DNA from: Heliocybe sulcata
Lineage: Eukaryota; Basidiomycota; Agaricomycetes; Gloeophyllales; Gloeophyllaceae
Assembly (NCBI GenBank): GCA_004369045.1
Contig: ML213503.1
Coordinates: 2,850,924-2,914,923 of the forward strand
Direction of reading: 5' to 3'
DNA length: 64,000 bases
Position numbers and translations under genes: made by a program. The notes beneath the pieces are model-generated. The model did not search any database. It worked only from the letters and a program-made list of their open reading frames with translations, and was not told the origin of the DNA. Of the stretch, positions 2,615 to 47,102 are shown in pieces; the stretch's first letter is position 1; the number at the start of each line of letters is the position of its first letter.

Positions 2615-4835
2615 GGACAATTACCAGTCACGCACTCACTAGGGCACCCAGTAGTAATTATCAAACCCGATATATACTGTTTGCGTTTATGAAGACACTG
2701 TTCTATCCTATCACGTATAGGCTACAATCCAGTCCAAACCGAAACGTCTGCAACACACTTGAATCCAATGCTAAGAGAAACATCAACCTGTCCTACACAC
2801 GTCATACCCTCGTACCCAATCCAACCAAATCCCAACAGTCACAATACATATCCAGTCCAGTTCAATCGCATGCAACCAAGAAGAAAACAAGCCATCGTCC
2901 ATAGTCATACACGCAAGAGATGAAGCAAGAGGGGGGGTGAAGGGCCGTCCAGACTGTAGCCCGGGGGAGCGTAGGCGACTTGCGGATAGAAATTGAAGAA
3001 GGCAGAGGTGGTCGTCGTCCGTAAGGATAGCCCGGGGGAGCGTAGGCGTCTTGCGGATGGAAGTTGGAAAAGGCAGAGGTGGTCGTCGTCCGTAAGGGTA
3101 GCCCGGGGGAGCGTAGGCGTCTTGTGGACCAAAGTGGAAAAAAGCGAAGGCAGAGATTGTCCGTAAGGATAGCCCGGGGGAGCGTAGGCGTCTTGTGGAC
3201 AGAAGTTGAGGAAGGCAGAAGGCAGGGGTCGTCCGTAAGGATAGTCCGGGGGNNNNNNNNNNGTCCGTAAGGATAGCCCGGGGGAGCGTAGGCGTCTTGT
3301 GGACAGAAGTTGAGGAAGGCAGAAGGCAGGGGTCGTCCGTAAGGATAGTCCGGGGGAGCGTAGACGTCTTGCGGACAGGGCTGAGAGCAGTTATGGTTGA
3401 AGAAGACAGCAGTCGTCCGTAAGGATAGCCCGGGGGAGCGTAGGCGTCTTGCGGATGGAAATTAGAGAAGGCAGCGGTGGCGGTCGTCCGTAAGGGTAGC
3501 CCGAGGGAGCGTAGGCGGCTTGCGGACCGAAGTTGGAGAAGTGGGAGGCAGTTCAGCGCGTAGTCCAACGACAGAAGAGCCTAGAGCAAAATTAGAGATA
3601 TTCTAGAGAATGACCGATCAGCGCTCACATATTGGCCGGTGCCCCTTACGCCTTGAGGGCGGAACCGGTTGTCATGTATTCCTGTGAAAGCGGTGGGCGA
3701 CTCGGATACAGATGGCTGACGTGACTTGATCGTGCCGCTAGTTCCTAAGGATGATCATGAATGTTAACACTGAGTTAAATAGCAGAGGCGTGAAAGATCA
3801 GTCGGGAGAACAAAGATATATGCTCACTTTACGACCGGGACCCCTTACGTCTTGAGGGCCATTCCGGTGGGAGTATGACTTTTTGACTTTGATATTAGGT
3901 AGGTATTCAAGTATAACTTGCTGTGTGAGGATATTGGAAGGTTTAATAGTAATTCTTTGATATGGAAGGTGGGCTAGAAGAGATACGACTTAGATCGTTC
4001 TATGAGAGGAGGAAGGTGATACTCACTTGTTGGTCCGCGGCTCCTTGCGTCTTAAGAGCTGCGCGGGTGGTCTCGCAGTCGACCACAGTGGTACCATTGC
4101 GACACTATCCGACCAGGTCGGACAATGCCGCATATGATGACCACGTACATGACAGGATGCTGTCAAAAGGAATCCATCAGTACATATTCTCTGGAACATC
4201 TGCGCGTGCTGGTCACCATTCCAGATGCGGGTACATGCACCCATTGTCCAGCAATGGTATGGAAGAGAGGAGAGAGAGTTGGAAGAGAGGAGAAGGGGAG
4301 GAGAGACGGCGCCAGCGCTGTGAGGATGACTGAGGCGGGGAGGTAGGTATTTATGCCTGTCCTCTTGCGGCTGACACGACGTGGAGCGTGTTTCTGGGCG
4401 CGTTCGAGGCCCGTCGAACTGTCATCAACAACAGGCGGCTGGCTGTATGACAATACGGTCAGAATCGAAATACTCCTGGCAGCCAGCTGGTATTGAACTC
4501 TTACCAGAACCACCACTAGGCTACCTGAGCATCAGCATGAAACACTTCATTCGCAAGCAAAACCGTGTCATACTTGCGACAAACGACATCGGAGACTTTG
4601 TAATCGTTCGATGTACGGAGTCAAAGCGGCCCAAGGAGCGTTCGAATTTCAGCTTCTGTCTTGAATGCGTGAGCCTGTTTATAGTACAAACGACTACTTC
4701 CTTACTGAGAGAAAGCATAAAGTCTTCGACATTGTTCATACACTCGCAGGCTCTGGTGATGCAAATAAGGACCGACGAAAGTCGCGAGTAGGGGAGTAGG
4801 GTCGTGTATGTCACGTGTGATGACACGTGCTTGCT
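2615..4835 (-). repeat. Composite repeat cassette, copy A1 (type I)
   Basis: First of eight copies, reading right to left. In its own 5' to 3' order: tRNA-like Pol III promoter (A box 4512-4522, B box 4462-4470, both on the minus strand); TATA box ATAAATA at 4348-4354; module 1 at about 4030-4110, with a hairpin of type CCCTN7AGGG followed by a GT donor; module 2 at about 3840-3870; module 3 of the type with CCGGTTNCGCCCTCAAGGC at about 3630-3670; then a minisatellite at about 2940-3545 with core gtccgtaaggatagcccggg, continuing into gagcgtaggcgtcttgcgga. The last 300 bp toward 2615 match the sequence that lies just past the HAD gene 3' end in copy D1. A run of 10 N interrupts the minisatellite. 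No transposase or reverse transcriptase is visible. Whether the cassette makes a protein or an RNA is unknown. Confidence 0.8.
3253..3262. other. Assembly gap of 10 N
   Basis: Ten N lie inside the minisatellite of copy A1, between two nearly identical units. The true number of units there is therefore unknown. Confidence 0.99.
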
Positions 4836-5024
4836 AGATCTTGCGGCTGCCATCCTCGAATCGGGGCGTAACCCGTACTTATCATATTAATGTCAAGGAC
4901 ATGAGAGTACGCGTCTTTCCCCTCCCGTTGTGAGACGAGTCGGTTGATTGATTTTCTGTTAGAGTCATCGCGAGGTAGATAGAAGGTATTTAAAGCAGAA
5001 GTCACGATAGACGAGTCGGAGTGA
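4836..5024 (+). pseudogene. HAD phosphatase 3'-end fragment between A1 and A2
   Basis: This stretch matches the last coding part, last intron and last exon of the HAD gene found complete at 34908-36263 and 41187-42538. It contains a decayed form of the region encoding ESGCNPDYIVNDLTK, a donor-like gtacgcg, the intron text ttcccctcccgttgtg, and a final-exon copy ending gacgagtcggagtga. Nothing of the upstream catalytic part is present. It is a fragment carried along with the repeat cassette. Confidence 0.8.
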
Positions 5025-6818
5025 AGCAAGAATGTCGGCAGTGACGACTATTCTGAGGCCATACTAGAGTAGATCAGGATGTACAGGACGCGATACAATA
5101 CTCGGTCGAGTGCAACAGTCACTAAGGCCACCGGTAATAATATCGAATGCACTCTATATTGCTTGCATAAAGAAGATATAGTCCTATGCTATCACACAGA
5201 GTCACACTCGAATCTAATCCAAGAAGAAACGTCAACCTCTCGCACACACATCAGACTCTCGTACCCAATCTAACCGAATCCTAACAGTCGCCGATCCAAG
5301 TCCAGTCATATACATCTAAGAGAAGACAAGCCATCGTCCATAGTCATACACACAAGCAAGAGGCGGAGTGAAGGGCCGTCCAGACTGTAGCCCGATGGAG
5401 CGTAGGCGCGTCGTTGAACAGAGCAGTCGGAGTTGGAGGAAGGCAGAGGCAGGTTGTCCGTAAGGGTAGCCCGGGGGAGCGTAGGCGTCTTGCGGACGAA
5501 GGTTGGAGACGTTGGACGCAGTTCAGTGCGTAGTTTAACGACAGAAGAGCCTAGAGCAAAGTCAGAGATATTCTAGAGAATGACCGGTCAATGCTCACAT
5601 ATTAGCCGATGCCCCTTACGCCTTGGGGGCGGAACCGGTTGTCATGTATTCCTGTGACAGCGACAGGTGACTCGAAAACGGATGGCTGTCGTGACTTGAT
5701 AGTGTCGCTAGTTCCTAAAGATAATCGCGAATGTTAACACTGAGCTATACAGGAGAGGCGTGGAAAATCGGTTGAATGATAATATATGCTCACTTTACGA
5801 CCGGGACCCCTTACGTCTTGAGGGCCGTTCCGGTGGAAGTATGACTTTGACTCTGATAGTAGGTAGGTATTCAAGTATAACTTGCTGAGCGAGGATACTG
5901 GAAGGTTCAACAGTAATCCTGCAATATTAAGGCAGGCTGGAAGAGATTCATATTAGATCGTTCTGTGAGAGGAGCAATGCAATACTCACCTGTTCGTCCG
6001 CGGCCCCTTGCGCCTTGAGGGCTGCGCGGGTGGTCTCGCCGTCGACCACAGTAGCACCATTGCGACACTATCCGACCAGGTCGGACAACGCCGCATATGA
6101 TGACCACGTACATGACACGATGCTGTCAAAAGAAATGCATCAGTACATAGTCTTTAGAACATCTGTGAATGCTAGGCACCATTCCAGATGCGGGAACATG
6201 CACCCATTGTCCAGCAATGGTATGGAAGAGTAGGGAGAGAGTTGGAAGAGAGGGGTGGAGAAGAAGAGAAGGCGCCAGCGCTGTGAGGAAGAGTGAGGCG
6301 GGGAGGGCGGTATTTATGGCTTTCCTCTGGCGGCTGGCAAGAAGCAGAGCGTAGATCCAGGCTATTCGAAACCCTGTCAAGCTGTCGTCGACGACAGGCG
6401 GCTGGCTCTATGACAAGACGGTCAGAATTGAAATATTCCAGGCGGCGAGCCCATAGTGAACTCTTACCACGACGACCACTGGGCCATCCGAGCATCAGCA
6501 TAAGCTACTCCTTTCGCCAACAAAATCTCATTCCTTTTCCTACAGACAAGATGCAGGCCTTGTAGATGTCCGATTTATGCAGTCAGCTCAGCCCAAGTCG
6601 CATTCGAATTTCAGCTTCTGTCTTTGGAATATGATCAAGGCAAACGAGTATTTACAGACCAACAGCAAGTAGAGCATCGTCATGAGTGTTCATACACGCA
6701 CACGGTCTGGTGATGGCAATAACGACGTCGACTGACGCGGACGAAGAGTTCGATTGGTAACGTCGTGTATGTCACGTGTGGCGACTGTCACCCCTGCATG
6801 CACCTAAGGTTTGGTCAC
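5025..6818 (-). repeat. Composite repeat cassette, copy A2 (type I)
   Basis: Second copy, same orientation as A1. tRNA-like promoter at 6425-6487 on the minus strand, TATA box 6311-6317, module 1 at about 6000-6080, module 2 at about 5800-5840, module 3 at about 5600-5650. The minisatellite is very short here (about 5395-5510, two to three units). The outer end has the near-palindrome ggcgactgtcacc (6780-6792) and stops at ttggtcac (6818). Homology with the outer flank of copy B1 continues beyond this point. Confidence 0.8.
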
Positions 6819-7162
6819 GGATTGAAGGAGTGTTTATTCGAGTAAGCTAGACAATCATGCAAGAGAAGGCGATATGATACACACGGTCGGGTAGATAGAT
6901 ACAATGGCCAGTTGGCATTAATCAAAATGATAGGAGCAGTGACTTTGGGTGAGCATGTACACGGCAAGCTTTGCAAGCGGGACGACGCAGTGGAAAATCC
7001 ACTTCAAAGCAAGACATGGTAGCAGTGGACAAGAGAAGGACATACCACTACAAGAAACGAGGTTCTGCAAAGGCCGTGGATGGAAGCGCTCTTCAAGATA
7101 GAGGGTCGACGTGAGGATTTCACCTCGGCGAGGATGGCATGCTCCCTCGCTTTCGCAGCTTC
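6819..7162. repeat. Flank shared in inverted form with 28240-28354
   Basis: From 6819 to about 6930 the sequence (ggattgaaggagtgtttatt and onward) matches the reverse complement of about 28240-28354, so the outer flank of A2 and that of B1 derive from one ancestral sequence. The rest, to 7162, shows no feature. Confidence 0.6.
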
Positions 7163-13913: not shown

Positions 13914-14303
13914 AGAAAGGCGAGTGGTGGTATAAAGAACGAAGGGGGGGGCTCGAGTGGAGGATATACGAGCTGTTACGAGTCTATCGGAGCTCCAGCC
14001 TCAGTTCTGGCGCTGGCCTTCCCGGGGTCTCCGTGACGCGTGATGGGTCACAGTTGGAAGCGGGGCGATGCGATTCGCTATCTCGGCTCTACGCCACAGC
14101 CGGCACGTGAATTCGTATCAAGCGCCCGTGTATGCCATAGCGGGTATACGCTTGTCCCCGCAATTCCGCTTGTGCACAGGCGTGTCCTGAGTAGCCGGGC
14201 GTATCTGTACTTGTGCGCGACGGCCAGCTGATGCTTCAGTATCGCTCGCGGAACATATTTCGGACGAACTCTGTCCGAACTTTGTTTCATTCAATGTCTT
14301 TGA
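13914..14303. other. SRPK upstream region
   Basis: About 390 bp with no gene seen. It should contain the SRPK promoter; no clear TATA box was picked out. Confidence 0.35.
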
Positions 14304-28354: not shown

Positions 28355-30432
28355 GTGACCAAACCTCAAGTGCATGCAAGACTTAAGTCGCCACACGTGA
28401 CATGCGCGAGGTTACCCGCGACCTTCGTCAGTCCTTATTCATATCACCACAGCCTGTGCGTGTATGAACACTCGTGAAGACGCTATACTTGCTGTCGGTC
28501 AGGAAGTACTCGTTCGCCTTGATTGTACTCCAGAAGGACCCACCGATTCGCGACAGAAGCTGAAGTTCGAATGCGACCTGGGGCTATTTGATTTCGTGAT
28601 CGGTCCAATCGGACAATTGCAAGGTCTTCGATCTCATTGGTAACGAAATGGCTCGGATTTTGTTGGTGAATAGAGTACTTTATGCTGATGGTCAGGTAGC
28701 CCGGTGGTGATTCTGGTAAGAGTTCAATAGCAGCTTGCTGTCAGGAATATTTCGATTCTGACCATATCGTCATACAGCCAGCCGCCTGTCGTCGACGGCA
28801 GCCTGACGGGGCCTCGAACGAGCCTGGAATTGTACCCTAGTACTACTGTAATCCTGTCAGCCGCCAGAGGAAAGCCATAAATACCGCCCTCCCCGCCTCA
28901 CTCTTCCTCACAGCGCTGGCGCCTTCTCTACTTCTCCACTCCTCTCTTCAAACTCTCTCCCTACTCTTCCATACCATTGCTGGACAGTGGGAGCATGTAC
29001 TCGCATCTGGAATGGTGATCAACACGCACAAATATTCCGAAGAACATGTACTGATGGATTCTTTTGACAGCATCATGTACGTGGTCATCATATGCGGCGT
29101 TGTCCGGCCTGGTCGGATAGTGTCGCAATGGTGCCACTGTGGTCGACGGCGAGACCACCCACGCAGCCCTCAAGTCGTAAGGGGCCGCGGACGAACAAGT
29201 GAGTATTGCCTTCCTCCTCTTACAGAACGATCTAATATGAATCTCTTCCAGCCCGCCTTGATATTGCAGGATTACTGTTGAACCTTCCAGTATCCTCACA
29301 CAGCAAGTTATACTTGAATACCTACTATCAAAGTCAAAGTCATACTTCCACCGGAATGGCCCTCAAGACGTAAGGGGTCCCGGTCGTAAAGTGAGCATAT
29401 ATTTTAATTCGATCGATTTTCCACGCCTCTCCTGTATAGCTCAGTGCTAACATTCCCCATTATCCTTAGGAGCTAGCGGCACTATCAAGTCACGACAACC
29501 GTCTATTTTCAAGGCACCTGTCGCTGTCACAGGAATACATGACAACCGGTTTCGCCCTCAAGGCATAAGGGGCACCGGCCAATATGTGAGCATTCACTGG
29601 TCATTCTGTAGAAAATCTCTGACTTTGCTCTAGGCTCTTCTGTCGCTCAACTACGCACTGGACTGCGTCCAACATCTCCAACCTCCGTCCGCAAGACGCC
29701 TACGCTCCCCCGGGCTACCCTTACGGACGACCCCTGCCTTCGCTTCCTGCAACGTCTATTCGCAAGATGCCTATACCCTTACGGACGACGCCCATCTCTG
29801 CCTTCTCCAACCTCCGTCCACAAGACGTCTACGCTCCCCCGGACTATCCTTATGGACGACTTCTGCATTCTCCCTTCCTCAACTTCGGTCCAGAAGACGC
29901 CTACGCTCCCCCGGGCTATACTTACGGACGACGACCACCTCTGCCTTCTTCAATTTCTATCCGCAAGTCGCCTACGCTCCCCCGGGCTACCCTTACGGAC
30001 AACCTGCCTCTGCCTTCCTCTACCTCCGACTATTCTGTTCAATAATGCGCCTATGCTCCCTCGGGCTACAGTCTGTACAACCCTTCACTCCCCCTCTTGC
30101 TTGTGTGTATGACTATGGACGATGGCTTGTCTTTTCTTAAATGTGTATGACTGGACTTGGATCGGCGACTGTCAGGTTTCGGTTAGATTGGGTACGAGAG
30201 GAGTCTGGGGTGTGTACGAGAGGTTGACGTTTCTTCTTGGATTAGATTCGAGCGTGACTGTGTGTCGTAGGATAGGACTGTAGCTTCTTTATGCAAACAA
30301 TATAGAGTGCGCTCGATCTTACCGGCGGCGTTAGTGACTGTTTCACTAGACCGAGTACATTGTATCGCATCCTGTCTGTCCTGGTCTACTCTAGTATAGC
30401 CTCAGAATAGTCGTCACCGCCGATATTCTTGC
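28355..30432 (+). repeat. Composite repeat cassette, copy B1 (type I)
   Basis: Reads left to right. Outer end gtgaccaaacctc, then gtcgccacacgtgac with a CACGTG. tRNA-like promoter with A box 28697-28707 and B box about 28750-28758; TATA box 28877-28883; a conserved leader ending in ccattgctggac; module 1 at about 29080-29200, ending in a GT donor (acaa|gtgagt); module 2 at about 29345-29390; module 3 of type I at about 29540-29590; minisatellite 29690-30070. The terminal part (30110-30432) matches the region next to the 3' end of the HAD gene. Confidence 0.8.
28697..28758 (+). promoter_or_regulatory. tRNA-like internal Pol III promoter (A and B boxes)
   Basis: A box tagcccggtgg and B box tttcgattct lie about 42 nt apart, as in tRNA genes. 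The arms gtcag and ctgac around the B box can pair as a T stem, though the loop is longer than in a tRNA. A second B-like match, gttcaatag, lies between them. The same pattern recurs in the other seven cassettes, the A box being least clear in C1. This resembles the head of a tRNA-derived SINE. Transcription is not shown. Confidence 0.5.
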
Positions 30433-30625: not shown

Positions 30626-32456
30626 AAGCACGCGTCGTCGCACGTGACATGCGCGACCCTACTCCCCTACTCGTCACTTCTGTCGGTCCTTATTCGCATC
30701 ACCAGAGTCCGCGAGTGTATGAACACCGTCGAAGACTTTATGCTTTCTCTCAGCAAGGAAATAGTCGTTTGTACTCCAAAAGGGCTCACGAATTCAAGAC
30801 AGAAGCTGAGATTTGAACGCTATTTTGACTTCGTAAGTCGAGCGATTACAAGGTCTTCGATCTCGTTTGTCGCAAGAATGACACGGTTTTGCTTGCGAAT
30901 AAAGTGTTTTATGATGATGCTCAGGTAGCCTAGTGGTGGTTCTGGTAAGAGTTCAATACCAGCTGGCTGTCAGGAATATTTTGATTCTGACCATATTGTC
31001 ATACAGCCAGCCTGCTGTCGTCGGTGACAGTTTGACGGGCCTCGAACACACCCAGAAACACGCTCTACGTCGTGCCAGCCGCCGGAGGAAGTCCATAAAT
31101 ACCGCCCTCCCCGCTTCACTCTTCCTCACAGCGCTGGCGCCGTCTTCCTCCCCTACTCCTCTCTTCCAAGCCTCTCCCTACTCTTCCATACCATTGCTGG
31201 ACAACGGGTGCATGTACCCGCATCTGGAATGGTGCCTAGCATGCACAGATATTCTAAAGAATATGTACTGATGAATCTCTTTTGACAGCATCGTGTCATG
31301 TACGTGGTCATCATATGCGGCATTGTCCGGCCTGGTCGGATAGTGTCGCAATGAAACCACTGTGGTCGACGGCGAGACCACCCGCGCAGCCCCTGAGGCG
31401 CAAGGGGCCGCGGACGAACAAGTGAGTATTGTCTTCGTCCTCTTACAGAGCGATCTAATATAAATCTATTTCAGCCCGCCTTAATATCAAAGGATTACTG
31501 TTGAACCTTCCAGTATCCCCATACACTTGAATACCAAATTACAAGCAGAGTCAACACGTACTCCCACCGGAACGGCCCTCAAGATGTAAGGGGTCCCGGT
31601 CAAAAAGTAAGCATATACCTTCATTTTTCCGAACGATCTTGCTTATCTGTCCTATATAGCAGTAAGCTAGCCTATCTTCCCTGGTCGGATAGTAGCAGCA
31701 ATAGCAACACTGTGGTCAACGGCGAGACCACCTGTGCAGCCCTTGAGGCGTAAGGGACCACGGATAAACAAGTGAGTAGTGTCTTCCGTTCCTTGTACCT
31801 CGACCTAAGTCGCTTCTCTTGTAGCTCGCCGACGTCAGGCACGAATACCACGACAAGTCTACCCTCTAGACTGCCTTCTCAATCACAATTCCTGCAAATT
31901 GGATCCTTAAGACGCCTATGCTCCCCCGGGCTATCCTTATGGATGACTTTCGCCTTCTACCTTCCTCAACTTCGGTTCGCAAGACGCCTATGCTCCCCCG
32001 GGCTACCCTTACGGACAACCTGCCTCTGCCTTCCTCTACCCCCGACTATGCTGTTCACGACGCGCCTACGCTCCCTCGCGCTACAGTCTGGATGACCTTT
32101 CGCCTCGCCTCCTTCTTAATCTCTCGTGTGTATGACTATGGACGATGGCTTCTCTGCTTTTCTCGGTTGTATGTGACTAGACTCGGATCGGCGACTGTTA
32201 GAATGGGCACGAGAGTTTGATGTGTATACGATAGGATGATGTTTCTTCTTGGACTAGGTTCGAGTATGACTGTGTGTAATAGGATAGGACTGTATCTTGA
32301 TAAACGCAAACAATATATAGCGCGTCCGATATTAACAGGTGCTTCAGTGACTAGTGTTTCACTAGACCGGGTATTGTATCGGGCCCTGTGTATCCTGGTC
32401 TACTCTAGTATAGCCTTCAAATTTAAATAGTACTCATCATCGCCAGTATCCTTGCT
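30626..32456 (+). repeat. Composite repeat cassette, copy B2 (type II)
   Basis: tRNA-like promoter with A box 30926-30936 and B box 30978-30988; TATA box 31095-31101; module 1 at about 31305-31425; module 2 at about 31555-31610; module 3 of the second type, a copy of module 1 with GTGGTCAACGGCGAGACCAC, at about 31680-31770; minisatellite about 31905-32090 with three to four units. Ends next to a HAD 3' fragment. Confidence 0.8.
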
Positions 32457-32645: not shown

Positions 32646-34907
32646 CGCCACACGTGACATGAGTACGGGACCCTCCTCGCGCTTTGTCCATGTCAATCAC
32701 CAGAGCCTGCGAGTTCTTGAATACTGATGAAGATTTTATGCTTTCGCTCGGTAAAGGAAGCATCCATTGGTCCTAGTCGTACTCCAAAAGGGCTCATAAA
32801 TTTAAGACAGAAGCTGAGCGCTGAGTGCTGAGCACTGACTCCATGCACGCGTCGTCATGTACACGTGACATACGCGACCCTACTCGCGACTTTCGTTAGT
32901 CCTTATCGCATCACCAGAGCCTCCGCACGAGTGTATGAACACTGCTGAAGACTCTATGCCGAAGACTCTATGCTTTCTCTCAGTAAGGAAGTAGTCGTTT
33001 TTCCTAGTTGTACTCCAAAAGGGCTCACGAATTCAAGACAGAAGCTGAATTTTGAACAAGTACAAGGTCTTCGATCTCCTTTGTCGCAAAAATAATACGG
33101 TTTTGCTTGCGAATAAAGTGCCGTATGCTGATGCTCAGGTAGCCTAGTGGTGGCTCTGGTAAGAGTTCAATACCAGCTCGCTGTTAGGAATATTTCGATT
33201 CTGACCGTATTGTCATACAGCCAGCCGCCTGTCGTCGATGACAGCTTGACGGGCCTCTAACAGGCCCAGAAACACGCTCTACGTCGTGTCAGCCGCCAGA
33301 GGACAGGCATAAATACCGCCTTCTCCCCCTCACTCTTCCTCACGGTGCTGGCGCCTTCTCTCTCCCTCCCCTCCTCCTCTCTTCCAACTCTCTCCCCACT
33401 CTTCTATACCATTGCTGGACAATGGGTGCATGTCCTTGCATCTGGAATGGTGACCAGCACGCACAGGCGTTCTATAGAATATGTACTTATGGATCTCTTT
33501 TGACAGCATGCCATGTACGTGGTCATCATATGCGGCGTTGTCCGACCTGGTCGGATAGTGTCGCAATGATACCACTGTGGTCGACGGCGGGACCACTCAT
33601 GCAGCTCCTAAGACGCAAGGAGCCGCGGACGAACAAGTGAGTATTACCTTCCTTCTCTTACAGAACAATCTAATTTGTATCTTTTCTAGCCCATCTTCAA
33701 TTTCAAAGGATTGCTGTTCAACTTTCCAGTATCCTCCCTCAGCAAGTTATTCCTGACTACCTACTTAATGGCACAAAATCATATGCCCACTGGGATGGCC
33801 CTCAAGACGTAAGGGGTCCCGGTCGAAAAGTAAGCATATATCTTCATCTTCCCGGATGATCTTGCTTATCTCTCCTATGTAGCAGTACGCGAACCTGTCT
33901 GACCTGGTCCGATAATAGTAGCAATATCACCACTGTGGTCAACGGCGACACCACCTGTGCAGCCCTTGAGGCGTAAGGGGCCACGGATACACAAGTGAGT
34001 AGTGTTTTACGTCCCTTGTACCTCGCTCTAAATCACTTCTCTTGTAGCTCGCTGTCAAGCATGAAGTCTACGACAAGTCTACGCTTCTCTGAACTCTCTC
34101 TGGACTGCTTTCTTGACTACATCTTCTGCAAATCGGATCCTTAAGACGCCTACGCTCCCCCGGGCTATCCTTACGGACGATTTCCACTCCCTGCCTCTTT
34201 CAACTTCTTTCCGCACGACGCCTACGCTCCTCCAGGCTCTCCTTAGTTCCGCCTTCCACACTCCGCCTTCTCTGACTTCGGTTCGCAAGACGCCTACGCT
34301 CCCCCGGGCTACCCTTACGAACGACCGCTGTGTTCCTCAACTCCATTCGCAAGACGCCTACGCCCCCCCGGGCTACCCTTACGGACGATCACCCCCTGCG
34401 CCTTCTCCAACTTCTATCCGCGAGATGCCTACGCTCCCCCGGGCTACCCTTACGGACAGCTTGCTTCTGCTTTTCTTCACCTCCGACTATGCTGTTCACG
34501 ACGCGCCTACGCTCCCTCGGGCAACAGTCTGGACAATCCTTGACACCGCCTCTTATTTCATCTCTCGTGTATATGATTATGGACGACAGCTTGTGTTTCT
34601 CCTCGGTTGTATGTGACTGGACTGGATTGGATTTGTATCTGTGACTGTTAGGATTCGGTTGAATTGGGTATGAAAGTATGGTGTGTGTATGAGAGGCTGA
34701 TGTTTCTTCTTGGATTGGATAGACTGTAGGATAGGACTGTATCTTCATATTTGCAAACAATATAGAGCGCGTTGGATATTAACAGGTGCCTTGGTGACTA
34801 TTTCACTAGACCGAGTATTGTACCGGGTGCTGTCTATCCTAGTCTACTCTAATATTCCAAGTGCCCGCCGTCGCAATGTTAGGATAGGGCAGACCAATAG
34901 CCTTCCT
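32646..34907 (+). repeat. Composite repeat cassette, copy B3 (type II)
   Basis: tRNA-like promoter with A box 33140-33150 and B box 33192-33200; TATA box 33309-33315; module 1 about 33520-33635; module 2 about 33775-33830; module 3 of type II about 33900-33995; minisatellite about 34135-34540 with six to seven units. The start contains a partly duplicated stretch (32740-33010, repeated ctttctctcagtaaggaag-like text). It runs straight into the 3' end of the intact HAD gene, so cassette and gene are convergent. Confidence 0.8.
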
Positions 34908-36263
34908 TCACTCAGACTCGTCTATCGTGACTTCTACTTTACCTTCAATCCACCTCGCGCTGACCCTACTCATGCAGAGAACCAATCAGCTAACTCATCC
35001 GACCACAGGAAGGGAAATGCGCGTACTTTGTTAGATCGTTGACAATGTAATCCGGGTTGCATCCCGACTCGAGGAGAGCAGCCCTCGTATGCGAGGTGCA
35101 CACCGCGAGCGTCTGCGCGCCTGCTGCGTGCCCGGACTTGATGCCCGAGGGCGCGTCTTCGACTACCAGGCCTACGCACATATCATGTTCACGTTCTCAA
35201 TACTTTGGGTGCCACAGGCTGGGGGATGGGCTCACATTTAGTGGGGTCGACGCCGCATTTCTTCGCGCCTGCAAGGTAGGGATCCGGGTGTGGTTTGCCG
35301 TTGGCGACGTCGTTGGAGGTGACGGGTCCGGCTGGGGGGAGGTGGATGCCGCACCGGGAGAGGGCTTTGGGGGTGTAGATGTTGGTTGCTGGGAGGATGT
35401 TTGATGAATGAGATACGGTGGATGGCGGTGTGGTGGTTAGCCGGGTTACGAGGAGTATGGGTGTGATGACACAGGGCAAATACGTACCAGATGTGACTAT
35501 GGTCCAGCCGTAAGATGGGGATCCGGTGGCGCGACCGGCTTCGAGCTGTAGTTACCCGGATTATTCGGTGGCTAATCAGATAGGTAGGAGCTCATCAGAT
35601 AACTAGACAGGTAGAGAACCCGGTACTGTCAAGGTACCCACCAGATGGACGGTGCAACAGCCACGGGACCGAGTGGTATCCTGCACTGTTATGATGAACT
35701 GAGAGATGCGATACGGACGTCGGGGTACTCGCTTGATGGATCAGGTCGAGTGCGCCGGGGAGGACGACGGGCCCGCCTTCGATCACCTCATCTTCGAAGC
35801 GCACGATCTCTGACTGCGGGATCCGAGTTAAGTGCGCCACATGTCTCGTACCAACGGCATGGGTTCAGGTTGTACCTGGAGCTTGCCTTCGTCGTCGATT
35901 TGGCACCACTCTTTGAGGGTGTCGTAGAGACGGCGGCCGTGCGACTTGTGTGCGATCTCGGCGCCGTTGGTGAGGCCGTAGTCGGCGGCGAAGGTCGACC
36001 AGGCTTTGAGCACGCCCGGGGTTGAATCGATCAGTGTGCTGCGATGCCAAGGACGACGTGTTGAGGGCGCAGATGGAGAGATGCGAGGTCGATGGCCGGT
36101 CGTTAGATGTGAGCACTGATGGTCAGGACACTTGCTGATGACGATAGTAGAGACGGCAACTGACCCGTCCATGTCGAACAGAATCTGGTGAACATCAGTA
36201 CATGATAGGACCTTATGATTCCCGACATGGGATTCTTACTGCATCTACTGTAATGGTAGGCAT
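34908..36263 (-). CDS. HAD-superfamily phosphatase, open copy (glycerol-phosphatase-like)
   Basis: HAD phosphatases use an Asp nucleophile to dephosphorylate small metabolites. This copy resembles fungal DL-glycerol-3-phosphatase/2-deoxyglucose-6-phosphatase types; substrate unproven. Eight exons are inferred from 36263 (MPTITVDA|) down to the stop at 34908-34910, about 240 residues. All motifs are seen: nucleophile motif ILFDMDGT, motif II WTIVTSAT, motif III lysine in NGKPHPDPYLAGAKK, and motif IV VVEDAPSGIKSG. A cap helix region (HKSHGRRLYDTLKEWCQ) lies between motifs I and II. The last exon (VSARWIEGKVEVTIDESE) follows DYIVNDLTK and a 62-nt intron; it is this last part that recurs between cassettes. 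The exon before motif II (after LPGALDLIHQA) has the least sure splice sites. An inverted second copy lies at 41187-42538. Confidence 0.85.
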
Positions 36264-36913
36264 CTTGCAGGGGCACAATTCCGCCACAGAATATTGGTCC
36301 ATACTAGAATATTCGCGACGGAAGAAGCCCCTCCAGGCGTAGTGTTATTTTTAGCACCTGCCGGATGTGGCAGAATCGAGCATATGCAAGCTCCGTCGTC
36401 TCATCCCGGCGTCGCCTCTCCTCTCTGGACAGCCTCAGCATATCTGCCGACCACGCGCCGTGCAAAGTACAATAAGCAACGAGCAGGTATTGATACTGTC
36501 AAGCAGCATTGACAGACAGGTTTAGGAAACTGTTAAGAGAACAAACGCAGGTCTAAAAGTAGAGATGCCAAAACAATCGAGTGAGTATCTACCGCCCTTG
36601 TCCGTTTCCAGCGACCCCTCTATTTGCCGGCATGGTCCTGCCGTGTGCTCCATTCCCATCAGCTCCATGATATCCTACTTGAATCGTGGCCACCGGTATA
36701 AAACCTTATCCTACTCTCTTCCACTCTTTCACCTTCCGGTCTTTTCTCTTCCCTCTCTCTCTCAGCCTCGGCCTACAGACTTCTGTCTCGTTCGCGATCA
36801 GGCATCGTCGACCAGACCAACCGTCTCGACAGACATTCCAATCTTTACCTCACGACCTGGTGTCCGGCCTTAACTTCTACCCAATCGAACAAGCCCACCT
36901 TTCACGTTTCAAT
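36264..36913. promoter_or_regulatory. Divergent promoter region of HAD copy 1 and the CBM19-like gene
   Basis: About 100 bp next to the HAD start (to about 36370) match, inverted, the sequence before HAD copy 2 (gcttcctccgtcgcg and caatattctgtggcgg-like text). Toward the CBM19-like gene there is a TATA box, tataaaa at 36697-36703, followed by a pyrimidine-rich 5' leader of about 180 nt. Confidence 0.55.
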
Positions 36914-38979: not shown

Positions 38980-40804
38980 CCAGAGGAACGTCGTCGTCAT
39001 CATACACGCACACACACAGGAAAGAGCAGTAAGGGCGAGGGGTCGTTCATAACTGTAGCCCGGGGGAGCGTAGGCACGTCTTGAACGGAATGGTCAGTGT
39101 CAGGGGAAGGCAGAGGCGGCGGTCGTCCGTAAGGGTAGCCCGGGGGAGCGTAGGCGTCTTGTGAACCGAAGTTGAGGAAGGGAGAAGGTGGAATTTGTCC
39201 GTAAGGATAGCCCGGGGGAGCATAGGCGTCTTGCGGTTAGACGTTGGAGGAAGCGAGGGCATTGAGCGGTTATCCGTAAGGGTAGCCCGGGGGAGCGTAG
39301 GCGTCTCGTGGATCAAAGTCAAGGAAAGTGAAGGCAGCAGTTGTCCGTAAGGATAGCCCGAGGGAGCGTAGGCGTCTTGCGGACCAAAGTTGAGACGAAG
39401 TTGAGAAAGGCAGAAGGCGGAAGTCGTCCGTAAGGATAGCCCGGGGGAGCGTAGGCGTCTTAAGGATCCAATTTGCAGGAGTGTTAGCTAAGAAGGCAGT
39501 CCAGAGCGTAGTTCGGGGGGGCGTAGACTTATCGTGGACTTCATGCTTGACGGCGAGCTACAAGAGAAGTGATTTAGATCGAGGTACAAGGGATGCAAGA
39601 CACTACTCACTTGTTTATCCGTGGCCCCTTACGCCTCAAGGGCTGCACGGGTGGTCTCGCCATTGACCACAGTGATGATATTGCTACTACTATCCGACCA
39701 GTTCGGTCAGGTTCGCGCACTGCTATATAAAGGACATAAATAAGATTATTCAGGAAAATGAAGATATATGCTCACTTTTCGACCGGGACCCCTTACGTCT
39801 TGAGGGTCAGTCCGGTGGGCATATGATTTTGTGCCAGTAGGTAGGTAGTCAAGAATAACTTGCTGAGTGAGGATACTGGAAGGTTGGACAGTAATCCTTT
39901 GATATCGAAGATGGGCTAGAAGGGATACAACTTAGATCGTTCTGTGAGAGGAGGAAGGTAATACTCACTTGTTCGTCCGCGGCTCCTTGCATCTTAAGAG
40001 CTTCGCGGGTGGTCCCGCCGTCGACCACAGTGGTATCATTGCGACACTATCCGACCAGGTCGGACAATGCCGCATATGATGACCACGTACATGACAGGAT
40101 GCTGTCAAAAGAGATCCATCAGTACATATTCTTTAGAACATCTGTGCATGCTGATCACCATTCCAGATGCAAGGACATGCACCCATTGTCCAGCAATGGC
40201 ATAGAAGAGTGGGGAGAGAGTTGGAAGAGAGGAGTAGGGGAGGAAGACGGCGCCCGCGCTGTGAGGAAGAGTGAGGCGGGGAGGACGGTATTTATCCCTG
40301 TCTACTGGCGGCTGACACGATGTAGAGCGTGTTTCTGGGCGTGTTCGAGGCCCGTCAAACTGTCACAGACGACAGGCGGCTGCCTGTATGACAATATGGT
40401 CAGAATTGAAATATTCCCGACAGCAAGTTGGTATTGAACTCTTACCAGACCAATCACCCAGTTACTTGAGCATACAATATACCGTTGACACACAAAACTC
40501 CATCTCCTTATGAAATCAATATCGTACCCCCGTGCAAGTATACGACGTACGAAGTCAGTTCAGCCGAAGTCGTGCTGAGTTTCCGACTTTCGCTTTGAAA
40601 AATTGATGCTTGCTGCGGGAATAGCTCTGGCGTAGTATGTTGTGGGACATTCTTTATTATCGACAGGTATCCCTGGCAGCGCAAGTAACGATTGAAGAAG
40701 AAGAAGAGCATCCTCGAAGATATTGGTGACATGTCGTGTACGTCACGTGGGGTGACTGTCACCCTCGCCTTGGCGGGCGCCGCCGCCCGCCCGCCTTCGG
40801 TCAC
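38980..40804 (-). repeat. Composite repeat cassette, copy C1 (type II, 5'-complete, 3'-truncated)
   Basis: Reads right to left. tRNA-like promoter about 40403-40465 on the minus strand (A box decayed); TATA box 40289-40295; module 1 about 39970-40050; module 2 about 39780-39825; module 3 type II about 39610-39690; minisatellite 39055-39475. The roughly 350 bp that elsewhere join the minisatellite to the HAD 3' end are missing, so it is truncated at the left. The outer end contains the palindrome ggtgactgtcacc (40751-40763) and stops at ggtcac (40799-40804). Confidence 0.78.
40772..40791. repeat. GC-rich 8-bp hairpin at the C1 outer end
   Basis: GGCGGGCG and CGCCCGCC are perfect inverted repeats around a 4-nt loop (CCGC). 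The equivalent position in copy D2 (about 47090) lacks the hairpin, so it is an insertion or local expansion in this copy. Confidence 0.7.
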
Positions 40805-41186
40805 CAGAGTATAGGTGTGGAAGAAATGTTTTGTTCCTGTACTCATTGCTAACTTTCGAACCGTAGGGCCTTTATGGATGACTTACCAGCGGAACCTGTA
40901 CCAAAGCAAGCCCGCCAGTTGTAAAAACTGCCGCCAATCAATTCCAATGTGAAGACCGCGACTGGGAGGACTTTCAAGAAGAGGCCGGACTCTGATGGTC
41001 AATGTCAAGTCATCGTGGCTAGATGCCTGTGCCTTGTAGCGAAAGATCTCAATGTCTCCTGGTTTATTCTAACTGCTCGTTCCTTCTGGAAGTGGGGCCA
41101 TAAGAAAGGTCTCCTGCAACGGGGCTTCCTCCGTCGCGTTCTGGTCAGAACTAATATTCTATGGCGGGGTCACCTGTCCGCGCAAA
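40805..41186 (+). repeat. HAD copy 2 upstream region, duplicated at 47103-47448
   Basis: This region before the HAD start matches 47103-47448 closely: shared text includes agaagaggccggactctgat and ataagraa followed by ctcctgcaacgg. The right-most 80 bp match the upstream side of HAD copy 1. It should include the HAD promoter; no clear TATA box is seen. Confidence 0.65.
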
Positions 41187-42538
41187 ATGCCTACCATTAC
41201 AGTAGACGCAGTAAGAAATTCCATGTCTGGACTCACAAGGTCCTATCATGTACTGATGTTCACCAGATTCTGTTCGACATGGACGGGTCAGTTGCCGTCT
41301 CTACTATCGTCATCAGCAAGTGTCCTGACCATCAGGTGCTCACATCTAACGACCGGCCATCGACCTCGCATCTCTCCATCTGCGCCCTCAACACGTCGTC
41401 CTTGGCATCGCAGCACACTGATCGATTCAACCCCGGGCGTGCTCAAAGCCTGGTCGACCTTCGCCGCCGACTACGGCCTCACCAACGGCGCTGAGATCGC
41501 GCACAAGTCGCACGGCTGCCGTCTCTACGACACCCTCAAAGAGTGGTGCCAAATCAACGACGAAGGCAAGCTCCAGGCACAACTCGAACCCATGCGGTTG
41601 GTACGAGACATGTGGCGCACTTAACTCGGTTCCCGTAGTCAGAGATCGTGCGCTTAGAAGATGAGGTGATCGAAGGCGGGCCCGTCGTCCTCCCCGGCGC
41701 ACTCGACCTGATCCATCAAGCGAGTACCCCGACGTCCGTATCGCATCTCCCAGTTCATCATAACAGTGCAGGATACCACTCGGCCCCGTGGCTGTCGCAC
41801 CCTCCATCTGGTGGGTACCTTGACAGTACCGGGTTCTCTGTCTGTCTGATGAGCTTCCACCTATCTGATAAGCCACCAAATAATCCGGGTAACTACAGCT
41901 CGAAGCCGGTCGCGCCACTGGATCCCCATCTTACGGCTGGACCATAGTCACATCTGGTACGTATTCGCCCTGCATCATCACACCCATACTCCTCGTAACC
42001 CGGCTAACCACCACACCGCCATACACCGTACCTCGTTCATCAAACATACTCCCAGCAACCAACATCTACACCCCCAAAGCCCTCTCCCGCTGCGGCATCC
42101 ACCTGCCCCCAGCCGGGCCCCTCACCTCCAACGACGTCGCCAACGGCAAACCGCACCCCGACCCCTAACTCGCAGGCGCGAAGAAATGCGGCGTCGATCC
42201 CACTAAATGTGCGCTCACCCCCAGCCTCGAACGCGATGTTGCTTGCTGAATACTAATAACGTGATGTATGCATAGGCGTGGTAGTCGAAGACGCGCCCTC
42301 GGGCATTAAATCCGGGCACGCAGCAGGCGCGCAGACGCTCGCGGTGTGCACATCGCATACGAGGGCTGCCCTCCTCGACTCGGGATGCAACCCGGATCAT
42401 ATTGTCAACGATCTAACGAAGTACGTGCCCTTCCCTCCCGTTGTGGGACGAGTTGGCTGATTGGTTCTCTGCATGAGTAGGGTCAGCGCGAGGTGGGTTG
42501 AAGCTAAAGTAGAAGTCACGATAGACGAGTCTGAGTGA
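41187..42538 (+). pseudogene. HAD-superfamily phosphatase, decayed second copy
   Basis: An inverted near-copy of the gene at 34908-36263 with the same exon layout: 41187-41210 (MPTITVDA), 41267-41286 (ILFDMDG), third exon from 41414 (TLIDSTPGVLKAW), later exons with WTIVTS, the TNIYTPKALSRCG part and the motif IV exon (VVVEDAPSGIKSG), ending with the last exon at 42536-42538 (tga). Differences from copy 1 indicate loss of function: an in-frame stop replaces Tyr in HPDPYLAGAKK, the cap-domain HGRR is HGCR, and the donor after DEGKLQ is GC (cag|gcacaa) instead of GT. Motifs I and IV are preserved. Without the motif III lysine-bearing helix end, the product would lack about 80 residues. Confidence 0.8.
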
Positions 42539-44816
42539 AGCAAGAATATGGGCGGTGATGACTATTTGGAGGCTATACTAGAGTACACCAGGACAGACAG
42601 GACCAGATACAATACCCGGTCTACTGAAACAGATACTAAGGCACCTGTTAATATCGAACGCGCTCTATATTGTTTGCATATATGAAAATACAGTCCTATC
42701 CTACAGTCTACAAATCTAATCCGAACCGAAGCTGTTTGCAGCACACTTGAATGCAATCCAAGAAGAAACGTCAACCTGTCGTACACACACCACACTTTCA
42801 TATCCAATTCAACCGAATCCTAACAGTCACAGATACAAATCCAATCCAGTCCAATCACGAACAACCGAGGAGAAACGCAAGCCGTCGTCCATAATCATAT
42901 ACACGAGAAATGAAGCAAGAGGCGGGGTGAAGGATTGTCCAGACTGTAGCCCGGGGGAGCGTAGGCGCGTCGTTGAACAGAATAGTCAGAGGTAGGGGAA
43001 GGCAGAGGCAGGTTGTCCATAAGGGTAGCCCGGGGGAGCGTAGGCGTCTTGCGCGTGGAAGGTGAGGAAGGCAGAAGGCGGAGGTCGTCCGTAAGAATAG
43101 CCCGGGGAGAGTAGGCGTCTTGTGGATGAAAGTTGGAGAAGGTAAAAGTGCTGGTCGTCCGTAAGGATAGCCCGGGGGAGCGTAGGCGTCTTGCGAACGG
43201 AAGTTGAAGAAGGCAGCAGGCGGAAGTTGTCCGTAAGGGTAGTCCGGAGGAGCGTAGACGGCTTGCGGATAAGGAGATCGTTCGAAAAGGTAGGGCGTAG
43301 GCGTCTTGCGCATGGAAGTTGGAGAAGGCAGAGGTGGTCATCGTCCGTAAGGGTAGCCCGGGGGAGCGTAGGCATCTTGCGAACCTGAGTCAGAGAAGGC
43401 GAAACTAAGGAGAGTCAGGAGGAACGTAGGCGGCGTGCGGCAAGAAGTTGATAGAGGCAGAAGGCTGAAGTCGTCCGTAAGGATAGCCCGGGGGAGCGTA
43501 GGCGTCTTAGGGATCCAATTTGCAGAAGCTGTAGTTAAGAAAGCAGTCCAGAGAGCAGTTCGGGGGAGCGTAGACTTGTCATGGACTTTATGCTTGACGG
43601 CGACCTACAAGAGAAGGTGAATAAGATCGAGGTACAAGGGATGGGAGACACTACTCACTTGTTTATTCGTAGCCCCTTATGCCTCAAGGGCTGCACGGGT
43701 GGTCTCGCCGTTGACCACAGTGGTGATATTGCCACTACTATCTGACCAGGTCAGACAGGTTTGTGTACTGCTATATAGGAGAGATAAGCAAGGTCATTCG
43801 TGAAAATGAAGATATATGCTCACTTTTCGACCGGGACCCCTTACGTCTTGAGGGCCATTCCGGTGGGCAAATGACGTTATGCCCGTCAGTAGGTAGTCAA
43901 GGATAACTTGCTGAGCGAGGATACTGGAAGGTTGAACAGTAATGCTTTGATACTGAAGATGGGCTAGAACGGAATCAAATTAGATCGTTCTGTAGTAGGG
44001 AGGAAGACGATACTCACTTGTTCGTTCGCGGCCCCTTGCGCCTCAAGGGCTGCGAGGGTGGTCTCGCCGTCGACCACAGTGGTATCATTGCGACACTATC
44101 CGACCAGGCCGGACAGCACCGCATATGATGGCCACGTACATGACACAATGCTGTCAAAAGATATTCATCAGTGCATAGTCTTTAGAACATCTGTGAATGC
44201 TAGGCACCATTCCAAATGCGGGTACATGCACCCATCGTCCAGCAATGGTATGGAAGAGTAGAGAGAGGCTTGGAAGAGAGGAGTAGGGAGGAGAGACGGC
44301 GCCTGCGCTGTGAGGAAGAGTGAGGTGGAGAGAGCGGTATTTATGGCTTTCCTCTGGCGGCTGACATGAGTGTTCGAGGCCCGTCAAAATGTCATCGACG
44401 ACAGGCGGCTGGTTGTGAGATAATACGGTCAGAATCGAAATATTTCCGACAGCGAGCTGGTTATTGAACTCTTACCAGAACCACCACTAGGCTACATGGG
44501 CATTAACATAACATGCTTTATTTACAAGCAGAATCATATACCTTTGACTACAAAAGAGATCGAAGAACGTAAGTGCGATTATCCAATATGTGAAGTCAAA
44601 TCAGACCAAGTAGCGTTCGAATTTCAGCGCTGAAGTTCTGTCTTGAATTGCAAGACCTGTTGGAGTACGAGTAGGCCAAGTGAATACTACTTCCTTTACT
44701 GAGCGAAAGCATAGAGTCGCCATCGGTGTTCAATCAATGGCAGGCTCTGATGATGCGAATATGACAAAGCGCGAGGAGGGTCCCGTACTCATGTCACGTG
44801 TGGCCACTCGGACGCG
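42539..44816 (-). repeat. Composite repeat cassette, copy D1 (type II)
   Basis: Directly follows the HAD copy 2 stop and is convergent with it. In its own direction: tRNA-like promoter on the minus strand (A box 44484-44494, B box 44432-44440), TATA box 44338-44344, module 1 about 44010-44095, module 2 about 43820-43865, module 3 type II about 43640-43760, minisatellite 42945-43510 with about nine units, then about 400 bp to the HAD stop. It is the best place to see the junction HAD gene-cassette. Confidence 0.82.
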
Positions 44817-45001
44817 TCTCGCGGTGTGGCACCTATCCTCGAGTCAGGGGTGTAACCAGTATTACATTGTAAAGAACCTGAAAGCACGCGCGTTTCCCCT
44901 CCCGTTGTGGGGCCAGTTGGCTGATGAATCCTCTGCGTGGGTAGAGTCAGCCCGAGGTGGATCGAAGGTAAAGTAGAAGCCGCGAAGACGAGTCTGAGTG
45001 A
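44817..45001 (+). pseudogene. HAD phosphatase 3'-end fragment between D1 and D2
   Basis: Plus-strand remnant with decayed text of the region encoding LAVCTSHTR and ESGCNPDYIVNDLTK, intron text ttcccctcccgttgtgg, and a final exon ending gacgagtctgagtga. It shares its internal deletion with 32457-32645. Confidence 0.78.
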
Positions 45002-47102
45002 TGCAAGGACATTGGCGTTGAAGGCTACTTGGAGGCTATACTAGAGTAGACCAGGATAGACAGGACCCAATACAGTGAAACACTAGTCACTGAGGCACCT
45101 GTTAATATCGGATGCGCTATATATTGTTTGCATTTATCAAGATACAGATCACACACAGTCATACTCGAACCTATCCAAGAAGAAGTATCATGCTATCGTA
45201 TACACATCAAACTCTCGCACCCAATCTAACAGTCACAGATATGCATCTAGTCCAGTCTAGTCACATACAACCGAGAAGAAACACAAGCCATCGTCCATAG
45301 TCATACACACAAGAGATAACACAAGAGGGGTGAAGGGTGGTCCAGACTGTAGCCCGGGGGAGCGTAGGCGCGTCGTGAACAGCATAGTCGGAGTTGGAAG
45401 AAGGTGGAAGAAGGTTGTCCGTAAAGGTAGCCCGGGGGAGCGTAGGCATCTTGCGGATAGAAGTTGGAGGACGCGGAGGTGGTGGTCATCCATAAGGGTA
45501 GCCCGGGGGAGCGTAGGCGTCTTGCGGATGGACGTTGAAGTTGGCAGAGGCGGTGGTTGTCCGTAAGGATAGCCCGGGGGAGCGTAGGCGTCTTGCGGAT
45601 CGAAGTAGGAGAAGGCAGAGGTGGCAGTCGTCCGTAAGGATAGCCCAGGGGAACGTAGGCGTCTTGCAGATTGAAGTTCGAGAAGGCGGAGGAGATCGTC
45701 CGAAAGGGTAGCCCGGGGGAGCGTAGGCGTCTTGCGGATTGAAGTTCGAGAACGTGGAGAAGAAGATCGTCCGAAAGGATAGCCCGGGGGAGCATAGGCG
45801 TCTTAAGGATCCAATTTGCAGGAATTGTGATTGAGAAGGCAGTCCAGAGCGTAGACTTGTCGTGGAATTCGTGCCTGACGTCGGCGAGCTACAAGAGAAG
45901 TGACTTAGGTCGAGGTACAAGGAACGGAAGACACTACTCACTTGTTTATTTGTGGCCCCTTACGCCTCAAGGGCTGCACAGGTGGTCTCGCCGTTGACCA
46001 CAGTGGTGATTGCTACCACTATCCGACCAGGTCGGACAGGTTCGCACACTGCTATATAGGACAGATAAGCAAGATCATCCGGGAAGATGAACATATATGC
46101 TTACTTTTTGACCGGGACCCCTTACGTCTTGAGGGCCATTCCGGTGGGAGTGTGTTTTGACTTTGCTAGTAAGTCGGTATTCAAGTGTATGAGGATACTG
46201 GAAGGGTCAACAGTAATCCTTTGATATTGAGGCGGGCTGGAAGAGATCAATATTAGATCGCTCTGTAAGAGGACGAAGACAATACTCACTTGTTCGTCCG
46301 CGGCCCCTTGCGCCTCAAGGGCTGCGCGGGTGGTCTCGCCGTCGACCACAGTGGTTTCATTGCGACACTATCCGACCAGGCCGGAGAATGCCGCATATGA
46401 TGACCACGTACATGACACGATGCTGTCAAAAGAGATCCATCAGTACATATTCTTTGGAATATCTGTGCGTGCTGATCACCATTCCAGATGCGAGTATATG
46501 CACCCACTGTCCAGCAATGGTATGGAAGAGTAGGGAGAGAGTTGGAAGAGAGGAGTGGAGAAGTAGAGAAGACGCCAGCGCTGTGAGGAAGAGTGAGGCG
46601 GAGAGGGCGGTATTTATACCTTCCTTCTGGTGGCTGGCAAGAAGCAGAGCGTGACCCGAGGCTCGTTCGAGGCCCTCAAATCTGTCATTAACGACAGGCG
46701 GCTGGCTGTATGACAATATGGTCAGAATCGAAATCTTTCCGACAGCGAGCTGGTATTGGACTCTTACCAGAACTACCACCGGGCTTTCCTGAGCACAGGA
46801 TTCTCTGTTCGCTAGCGCACTCCCACCCCGTCTTTGTAAACAAGACCGTACCACCGCGCAAAATGTACGATGCCCGAAGTCGGTTCAGCCAAAGTTGTGC
46901 TGATAGTCCAGAAAGAATCGGCTTTGCCCGGCTGTCAAAACCGACGCCTTCTGAAGTAATGACTATGTCATAGTAGATTGTAGTCCATTCGTTGTTATCG
47001 ACAGGTAAGCATGGGCCCTGGCAGTGCAAGTAAGGATTTAAGGAAATTGGTAACATGTCGTGTACGTCACGTGGGGTGACTGTCACCCTCGCATTCGGTC
47101 AC
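45002..47102 (-). repeat. Composite repeat cassette, copy D2 (type II)
   Basis: tRNA-like promoter on the minus strand (A box about 46776-46786, B box 46725-46733), TATA box 46611-46617, module 1 about 46280-46370, module 2 about 46100-46150, module 3 type II about 45950-46035, minisatellite 45350-45815 with seven units. In module 1 the reading VVDGETTRAALEAQGAADEQ is open up to the GT donor. The outer end has ggtgactgtcacc (47075-47087) and stops at ggtcac (47097-47102). Confidence 0.8.

Follow-up and report, generated by a model that had tools for sequence, protein, structure and literature searches.

What kind of element is repeated eight times in a 64,000-nucleotide (nt) stretch of the genome of Heliocybe sulcata, a brown-rot (wood-rotting) fungus? 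The stretch, here called the window, is G000:C1:2850924-2914923, where C1 is the window's own contig; C28, C32 and C4 are other contigs of the same 31.6-Mb assembly. An initial annotation of the window offered two answers: a non-autonomous amplified element or a multicopy short-exon gene. Judging from the sequence, we see about an even chance that these cassettes are locally amplified genes with a TATA promoter and several exons, that they act mainly as RNA, and that they descend from, or share an ancestor with, a family of orphan protein genes on C28. They may work as RNA and not as protein because the protein has seemingly been lost while the promoter, the intron borders and a folded RNA have been kept. 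A literature search turned up nothing on this locus, and we make no wider claim about the published record.

Eight cassettes share one architecture

Self-comparison of the window gave eight homologous units of ~2 kb that are ~76-90% alike over long stretches. The initial annotation had placed eight units with the same order of parts at these positions, and both the self-comparison and an eight-copy alignment bear this out. The cassettes, as supported by self-comparison, alignment and genome search, are:

D1: 2615-4835, minus strand
D2: 5025-6818, minus strand
D3: 28355-30432, plus strand
D4: 30626-32456, plus strand
D5: 32646-34907, plus strand
D6: 38980-40804, minus strand
D7: 42539-44816, minus strand
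D8: 45002-47102, minus strand

Each runs from a promoter through exon 1, an intron-like stretch of 56-57 nt, exon 2, intron 2, exon 3, intron 3 and exon 4 to a last exon that contains a 71-bp repeat. Modules ending in GT donors had been proposed as well; we find three exon-like modules per copy, with a donor at 24/24 module sites of the window. Intron 2 has the donor GTGAGT and a branch-like CTAA in 8/8 cassettes. Exon 4 comes in two kinds: in D4-D8 it is a partial copy of exon 2, and D1-D3 have a different exon 4. This difference is evidently an exon replacement within the family. The partial copies of exon 2 are:

D4: 31643-31771
D5: 33864-33994
D6: 39611-39750
D7: 43659-43786
D8: 45942-46068

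Exon 2 is predicted to fold

The predicted fold of exon 2 is the strongest signal of the cassettes. Its sense strand folds better than shuffled sequence in 8/8 copies (z-scores of -3.2 to -6.0, mean -4.38; antisense mean -1.71), and when six of the eight exons were refolded, 0 or 1 of 200 shuffles folded as well. For six other blocks, the sense means range from -0.57 to +0.34; these are the promoter, exon 1, introns 1 and 2, exon 3 and the sequence that follows it. In most copies three hairpins are predicted: one of 26 bp capped by a 3-nt loop, one of 6 bp and, directly before the donor, one formed by a motif that we call H; in D7 the last part takes a different lowest-energy fold. The long hairpin spans 57 nt, has two one-base bulges in its stem, and keeps 98.1% of cells paired in the 8 copies. 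The structured exons 2 are:

D1: 4027-4159, minus strand, 26-bp hairpin, 6-bp hairpin and H hairpin, then donor GTGAGT
D2: 5990-6122, minus strand, fold and covariance model
D3: 29066-29198, plus strand, covariance-model match (the exon itself is 128 nt)
D4: 31289-31421, plus strand, fold and covariance model
D5: 33504-33636, plus strand, covariance-model match (the exon itself is 130 nt)
D6: 39969-40101, minus strand, fold and covariance model
D7: 44018-44150, minus strand, fold and covariance model
D8: 46290-46422, minus strand, fold and covariance model

Run over the window and nine related loci, the covariance model of exon 2 scored the eight exons 2 at 146-162 bits and the five exon-4 partial copies, which lack the 5' arm, at 57-76 bits. 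The long palindrome was also matched on its opposite strand, and far weaker matches fell on C4 (21.2 bits) and C32 (18.6 bits); the C28 loci searched gave no strong match. One C28 copy scanned in 130-nt stretches contained none with a z-score below -1.53. Variable columns are also sparsest in exon 2, 28/130 compared with 45/110 in introns 1 and 2 (p = 0.0018); the figure upstream is 216/261.

Perhaps the 57-nt hairpin is diced, as in fungal microRNA-like RNA (milRNA) loci? Its long stem, small loop and nearly complete pairing in all copies would suit such a precursor. However, patterns made from its arms (24- and 25-mers), searched genome-wide with up to 3 mismatches, gave 8 matches each, all in cassettes. 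Since no second site lies within 3 mismatches in the genome, we rejected the idea that the exon-2 hairpin yields small RNA aimed at a clear target. We regard a milRNA-like precursor as quite improbable.

H lies at a fixed distance from splice donors

The motif H, CCCTCAAGACGTAAGGGG, also recurs at the other exon ends. Splice donors follow it at 48 sites, 21 nt (n=35) or 22 nt (n=13) after one fixed point of the motif. That all 48 have a donor is partly by construction, because a site had to show a donor-like hexamer within a 16-nt stretch to be counted; the exact spacing is not. The eight-copy alignment shows the same donors at the module sites of the window. A pattern search of the genome returned 28 matches for H and 0 for the reversed control. 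We added by hand six sites that this pattern had missed and dropped three matches: two on C28 that were spurious and lacked a donor (A134 1335 and B177 1169), and one inside the D7 minisatellite. Outside exon 2, the cassettes carry H at these places:

D1, end of exon 3: 3841-3858, minus strand
D2, end of exon 3: 5807-5824, minus strand
D3, end of exon 3: 29360-29377, plus strand
D4, end of exon 3: 31576-31593, plus strand
D5, end of exon 3: 33799-33816, plus strand
D6, end of exon 3: 39789-39806, minus strand
D7, end of exon 3: 43837-43854, minus strand
D8, end of exon 3: 46118-46135, minus strand
D1, end of exon 4: 3642-3659, minus strand
D2, end of exon 4: 5612-5629, minus strand
D3, end of exon 4: 29555-29572, plus strand
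D4, end of exon 4 (partial exon-2 copy): 31740-31757, plus strand
D5, end of exon 4 (partial exon-2 copy): 33963-33980, plus strand
D6, end of exon 4 (partial exon-2 copy): 39625-39642, minus strand
D7, end of exon 4 (partial exon-2 copy): 43673-43690, minus strand
D8, end of exon 4 (partial exon-2 copy): 45956-45973, minus strand

Between C1 and C28, H is 93% identical and its flanks 51-54%, for sites picked by their core; within one C28-type gene the H flanks are about half alike. Synonymous positions of H (CCT, GTA) are identical in 23/24 sites outside C1. A predicted stem in H was assessed on the sites with the 21-nt register, 34 out of 35 (the alignment lacks one, C28 G236 688): 94.1% of cells are paired compared with at most 72.5% in slid controls. 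The same stem has 26 double-change cells against 11.7 in shuffles, with 0/500 shuffles reaching 26, a signal weaker than the counts suggest because a few ancestral events are shared by many copies. For 13 exon-2-type modules, 95.1% of cells are paired and there are 10 double-change cells against 3.4, again reached by 0/500 shuffles. Among non-Watson-Crick cells, G.U exceeds A.C both in H (46 versus 9) and in exon 2 (45 versus 6), an excess that points to the sense RNA.

M builds the minisatellite

A second motif, the 20-nt M (GCCTACGCTCCCCCGGGCTA), builds the minisatellite of the window and is found in the 3' untranslated region (3' UTR) of C28 genes. The minisatellite that had been noticed in the units is recovered by Tandem Repeats Finder (TRF) as a 71-72-bp repeat in 5 copies and a 147-bp period in D6, and at least 2 repeat cores are present in 8/8 cassettes. 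The M arrays are:

D1: 2957-3445, minus strand, TRF and M core
D8: 45350-45728, minus strand, TRF and M core
Other copies: within 5388-5486, 29698-30068, 31914-32083, 34148-34524, 39056-39456 and 42947-43503

Ten N at 3253-3262 fall inside the D1 minisatellite, which makes the length of that array uncertain.

Searching the genome with the M core pattern gave 69 matches, compared with 0 in the control. M is 96% identical between C1 and C28 and its flanks 35%, the core figure being biased upward because the sites were picked by core. When sites were instead picked by the right flank, 30/32 had M within 3 mismatches, and part of one of the two exceptions is N; a left-flank anchor gave 6/7. The exact M core was absent from the bacterial and archaeal genome contigs and the viral contigs searched. 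A hairpin formed by M was considered and rejected: with 28 of the 65 sites folded, just 4 pairs were predicted, and there was no covariation.

A TATA promoter, with incomplete A and B boxes

Is transcription by RNA polymerase II (Pol II) or III (Pol III) to be expected? The initial annotation described a TATA box in every unit, and ATAAATACC is indeed present in 8/8:

D1: 4346-4354, minus strand
D2: 6309-6317, minus strand
D3: 28877-28885, plus strand
D4: 31095-31103, plus strand
D5: 33309-33317, plus strand
D6: 40287-40295, minus strand
D7: 44336-44344, minus strand
D8: 46609-46617, minus strand

A promoter block with two CCAGCC repeats and the TATA box is common to 14 copies (8/8 on C1, 4 of 8 on C28, and those on C4 and C32); the C32 copy has the TATA variant ATAAATGCC. 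A TATA at C28:137183 (row n137 of the promoter alignment) was rejected as a family member. The tRNA-like A and B boxes, also ascribed to all units, fare worse: a strict A box occurs in 5/8, a strict B box in 4/8 and both in 3/8 (D1, D4, D5). By eye, such boxes are absent from the four C28 promoters compared and from C4 and C32. ARAGORN finds no tRNA in the window, and Rfam gives 0 matches there at gathering scores and, for 42400-47200, 0 with E up to 2. An E-box-like CACGTGAC lies at the far upstream end of 8/8 cassettes, in D1 near 4810-4820.

Relatives on C28, C32 and C4

The promoter, H and M lead to a family of ~18 copies found: 8 on C1, 8 on C28, 1 on C32 and 1 on C4. We conclude that, by sequence, the cassettes belong to a gene family shared with C28, C32 and C4, of which they form the branch in the window. 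The C28 copies (134-243 kb) are A134, B177, C183, D193, E200, F202, G236 and H242, with H followed by M as in the cassettes. Three H were found in A134, B177, C183, D193 and H242 and two in F202 and G236, all with M; E200 has M, and no H was found in it. C32 has three H and C4 two, and 8/8 C1 cassettes have three plus an M array.

On C28 these genes encode orphan proteins of 283-668 amino acids (aa), annotated as hypothetical proteins (OE88DRAFT_1739512, _1667810, _1667741, _1811950, _919022 and _922452), several of which have, by eye, a hydrophobic N-terminal segment. A protein search up to E 10, with the 8000 best candidates scored, returned six H. sulcata proteins only and no C1 model, and a 494-aa C28 model matched no Pfam family. 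In the C28 copy that was fully read, H stands in frame at successive exon ends (..CPQDVRGAGRT, ..CPEDVRGAGYS, ..NPQDVRGSGQR), and the peptide motif, with variations, occurs in 6/6 annotated C28 proteins. In models that end in ..EDEDDD (P0002, P0003, P0004) the first M starts ~10 nt after the stop, which places it in the 3' UTR. In one C28 gene the second H is followed by a GC donor, GCAAGT (L027:7820-7930); the public model P0001 instead splices there at the GT inside H.

When cassettes and C28 loci were compared, H and M stretches alone aligned among the 150 alignment rows listed; hence, within those rows, exon 2 cannot be recognised as part of C28 coding sequence. No cassette was found to encode a C28 orphan protein.

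Protein genes, pseudogenes or RNA genes?

Do the cassettes encode some other protein? Changes are spread flatly over codon positions (11/11/8 in exon 2, 17/14/20 in exon 3). Frame-shifting indels, lost start codons and in-frame stops vary among cassettes, and the public gene models disagree in starts, acceptors and introns. A single conserved open reading frame (ORF) from exon 1 was rejected, its ATG being lost in D3, D4 and D8. We likewise set aside the cassettes as protein-coding, on account of the flat counts and the discordant models, although one exon-2 frame is open in 8/8. We conclude that, so far as sequence comparison can tell, the cassettes are without sign of protein-level constraint and are probably non-coding.

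Several observations, that open frame among them, weigh against genes that act as RNA. Public gene models of 167-254 aa lie in D3 (P0128), D5 (P0127) and D6 (P0129), and D7 has a listed ORF, P0130. In the folding comparison, the antisense strands of exon 3 and promoter also have slightly negative means (-1.25 and -0.79). The 26-bp hairpin is without compensatory change (0/26 pairs), and 58/500 shuffles match the whole exon-2 structure on the eight-copy alignment. The exon-4 partial copies of D4-D8 fold inconsistently (z-scores of -0.2, +1.7, -1.5, -2.6 and -1.4). Exon 2 does not differ significantly in variability from the block between TATA and exon 1 (40/138 variable; p = 0.21), and the eight copies are related, so gene conversion could raise their identity. 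Two of five measures of the H stem are close to the shuffled values (pairs with double change, 2 versus 1.8; further pair types, 8 versus 8.6), and in the 13-module set double-change pairs and pair types are reached by 23 and 97 of 500 shuffles. Four single H hairpins from C28, C32 and C4 fold no better than shuffles (z-scores of +0.82, -0.50, +1.45 and -0.59). Finally, we do not put forward the idea that H hides one of two competing donors: accessibility predictions gave no clear sign of either donor being hidden by H, and the inner GT/GC is AT in 2/48 sites.

Part of this evidence would suit the chief alternative, that the cassettes are recent, decaying pseudogenes of the C28 protein family, alike through duplication and gene conversion, with hairpins that are harmless inherited palindromes. 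The indels, lost starts and stops that vary between copies, an evident inverted segmental duplication and the long hairpin that lacks compensatory changes all speak for it. Decay alone, however, fits poorly with fine-scale conservation that is uneven, being higher in exon 2 than in the introns and far higher in the M core than in its flanks, with donors kept and TATA in 8/8. Nor is exon 2 recognisable in C28 coding sequence among the alignment rows listed. We hold pseudogenes to be a serious but rather unlikely explanation.

A fast-evolving protein family like the C28 genes, its exons partly captured by gene finders, stays a candidate because the C28 genes themselves evolve fast; their exons too show little codon-position bias, with a third-position excess in 2/6 (7 copies compared, C32 and E200 left out of the counts). 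The three public models and the exon-2 frame agree with such a family, and an exon-3 frame ending PQDVRGPGRK is open in D1, D3, D5, D6 and D7 (read by hand from the public-model acceptor). Against it stand the disagreement of the models, exons 2 and 3 without third-position bias, a minisatellite unit of ~71 bp that is not a multiple of 3, and the strong RNA fold of exon 2. We think a protein family of this kind improbable.

A mobile element?

Several copies in both orientations, with A and B boxes in 3/8, could suggest a non-autonomous mobile element resembling a short interspersed nuclear element (SINE), a miniature inverted-repeat transposable element (MITE) or a Helitron. Their distribution and ends make a mobile element unlikely. 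A whole-genome search with the D1 promoter and modules gave 19 matches, all in this locus, and one with the D5 tail gave this locus plus six short matches on C28; these searches score the best candidates only, so further diverged copies are possible. All full copies found sit within one 44-kb stretch. Homology continues beyond the cassette ends into spacers of ~190 bp, and 3/4 of the spacers between cassettes directly match the end of a neighbouring phosphatase-like gene, being short remnants of that end. The ends of the units differ from copy to copy and merge into neighbouring sequence that is itself duplicated; by eye, the part of the alignment read showed neither shared ends nor target duplications, no dedicated target-site-duplication search having been made. 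Of the hallmarks of a SINE, A and B boxes in every copy are lacking, and no dispersed copies with common ends turned up in the genome search; spliceosomal intron signals are present. Taken together with Pol III boxes that are incomplete in 5/8, these results count against the amplified element of the initial annotation, and we regard it as very improbable indeed.

The other proposal of that annotation, a multicopy short-exon gene, is well supported by the TATA promoter, the register between H and the donor, the kept branch sites and acceptors, and the protein-coding relatives on C28. Its remark that no transposase or reverse transcriptase is visible agrees with Pfam: among the window ORFs tested, just 10 in number, the domains recognised were those of kinase, LRR, ATP11 and lipoyl ligase, and none came from a mobile element. 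For one window ORF, the closest relatives with a name belong to Neolentinus and Gloeophyllum. It had also named confinement of the copies to this locus as a point against its reading; the full cassette is so confined, but promoter, H and M parts occur also on C28, C32 and C4.

Two side observations concern the surroundings. Positions 34713-36331 and 41121-42716 form an inverted 1.6-kb segmental duplication, 90% identical, containing the phosphatase-like gene, presumably a HAD/GPP-like phosphatase from its translation read by eye; one ORF of the duplication, on the opposite strand to that gene, had no match in Pfam. At the start of the window, 59-180 is a short 27/36-bp tandem repeat of the ATGGGCGGTATGCC type.

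How the cassettes might act

If the cassettes are genes that act mainly as RNA, Pol II would transcribe them and their exons would be spliced. H might serve in splicing as an exon-end element, either as a hairpin or as a binding site, and M, in the 3' exon or 3' UTR, might be bound as a tandem site. The non-coding copies could then influence the C28 genes in trans, either as competitors for a shared factor or as a source of small RNA. A fuller version of this model is speculative, and we consider it unlikely as a whole: species-specific, spliced, folded RNAs would have arisen from the orphan family by loss of the protein, kept promoter, H and M, and come to regulate their protein-coding relatives on another contig in trans through H and M.

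Were this true, a protein gene family would have been caught turning into an RNA gene family, its RNA-level parts still under selection. Two motifs without an Rfam match here would be named and directly testable, H (21-22 nt from the 5' splice site) and M (a tandem 3' UTR motif). It would also become possible to measure, in one genome, what is kept and what is lost in young orphan gene families.

Comparison with known systems

The closest comparison is with the C28 orphan genes, which share with the cassettes the promoter block (4/8 of the C28 copies compared), H at exon ends, a downstream M array and a clustered, multicopy arrangement; unlike the cassettes, they encode proteins of 283-668 aa and have no strong match to the exon-2 model. 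The transferrin receptor mRNA carries iron-responsive elements, several copies of one short 3' UTR motif. M is likewise a short multicopy 3' UTR motif, set beside them by description only, but differs in that folding 28 of its 65 sites gave no supported stem.

With fungal milRNA loci (reported, for instance, in Coprinopsis, PMC6145500), the cassettes would share a long imperfect hairpin in RNA; the cassette hairpin, however, lies within an internal exon, next to two further hairpins and a splice donor. Long non-coding RNAs (lncRNAs) have also been described in brown-rot fungi: in Coniophora and Serpula, most (60-65%) are monoexonic, their folds are less stable than those of coding transcripts, and they are hardly conserved between the two species (PMC6525899). 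Like these lncRNAs, the cassettes would be candidate non-coding transcripts of a brown-rot basidiomycete; they would differ in being multi-exon and multicopy, with one strongly folded exon.

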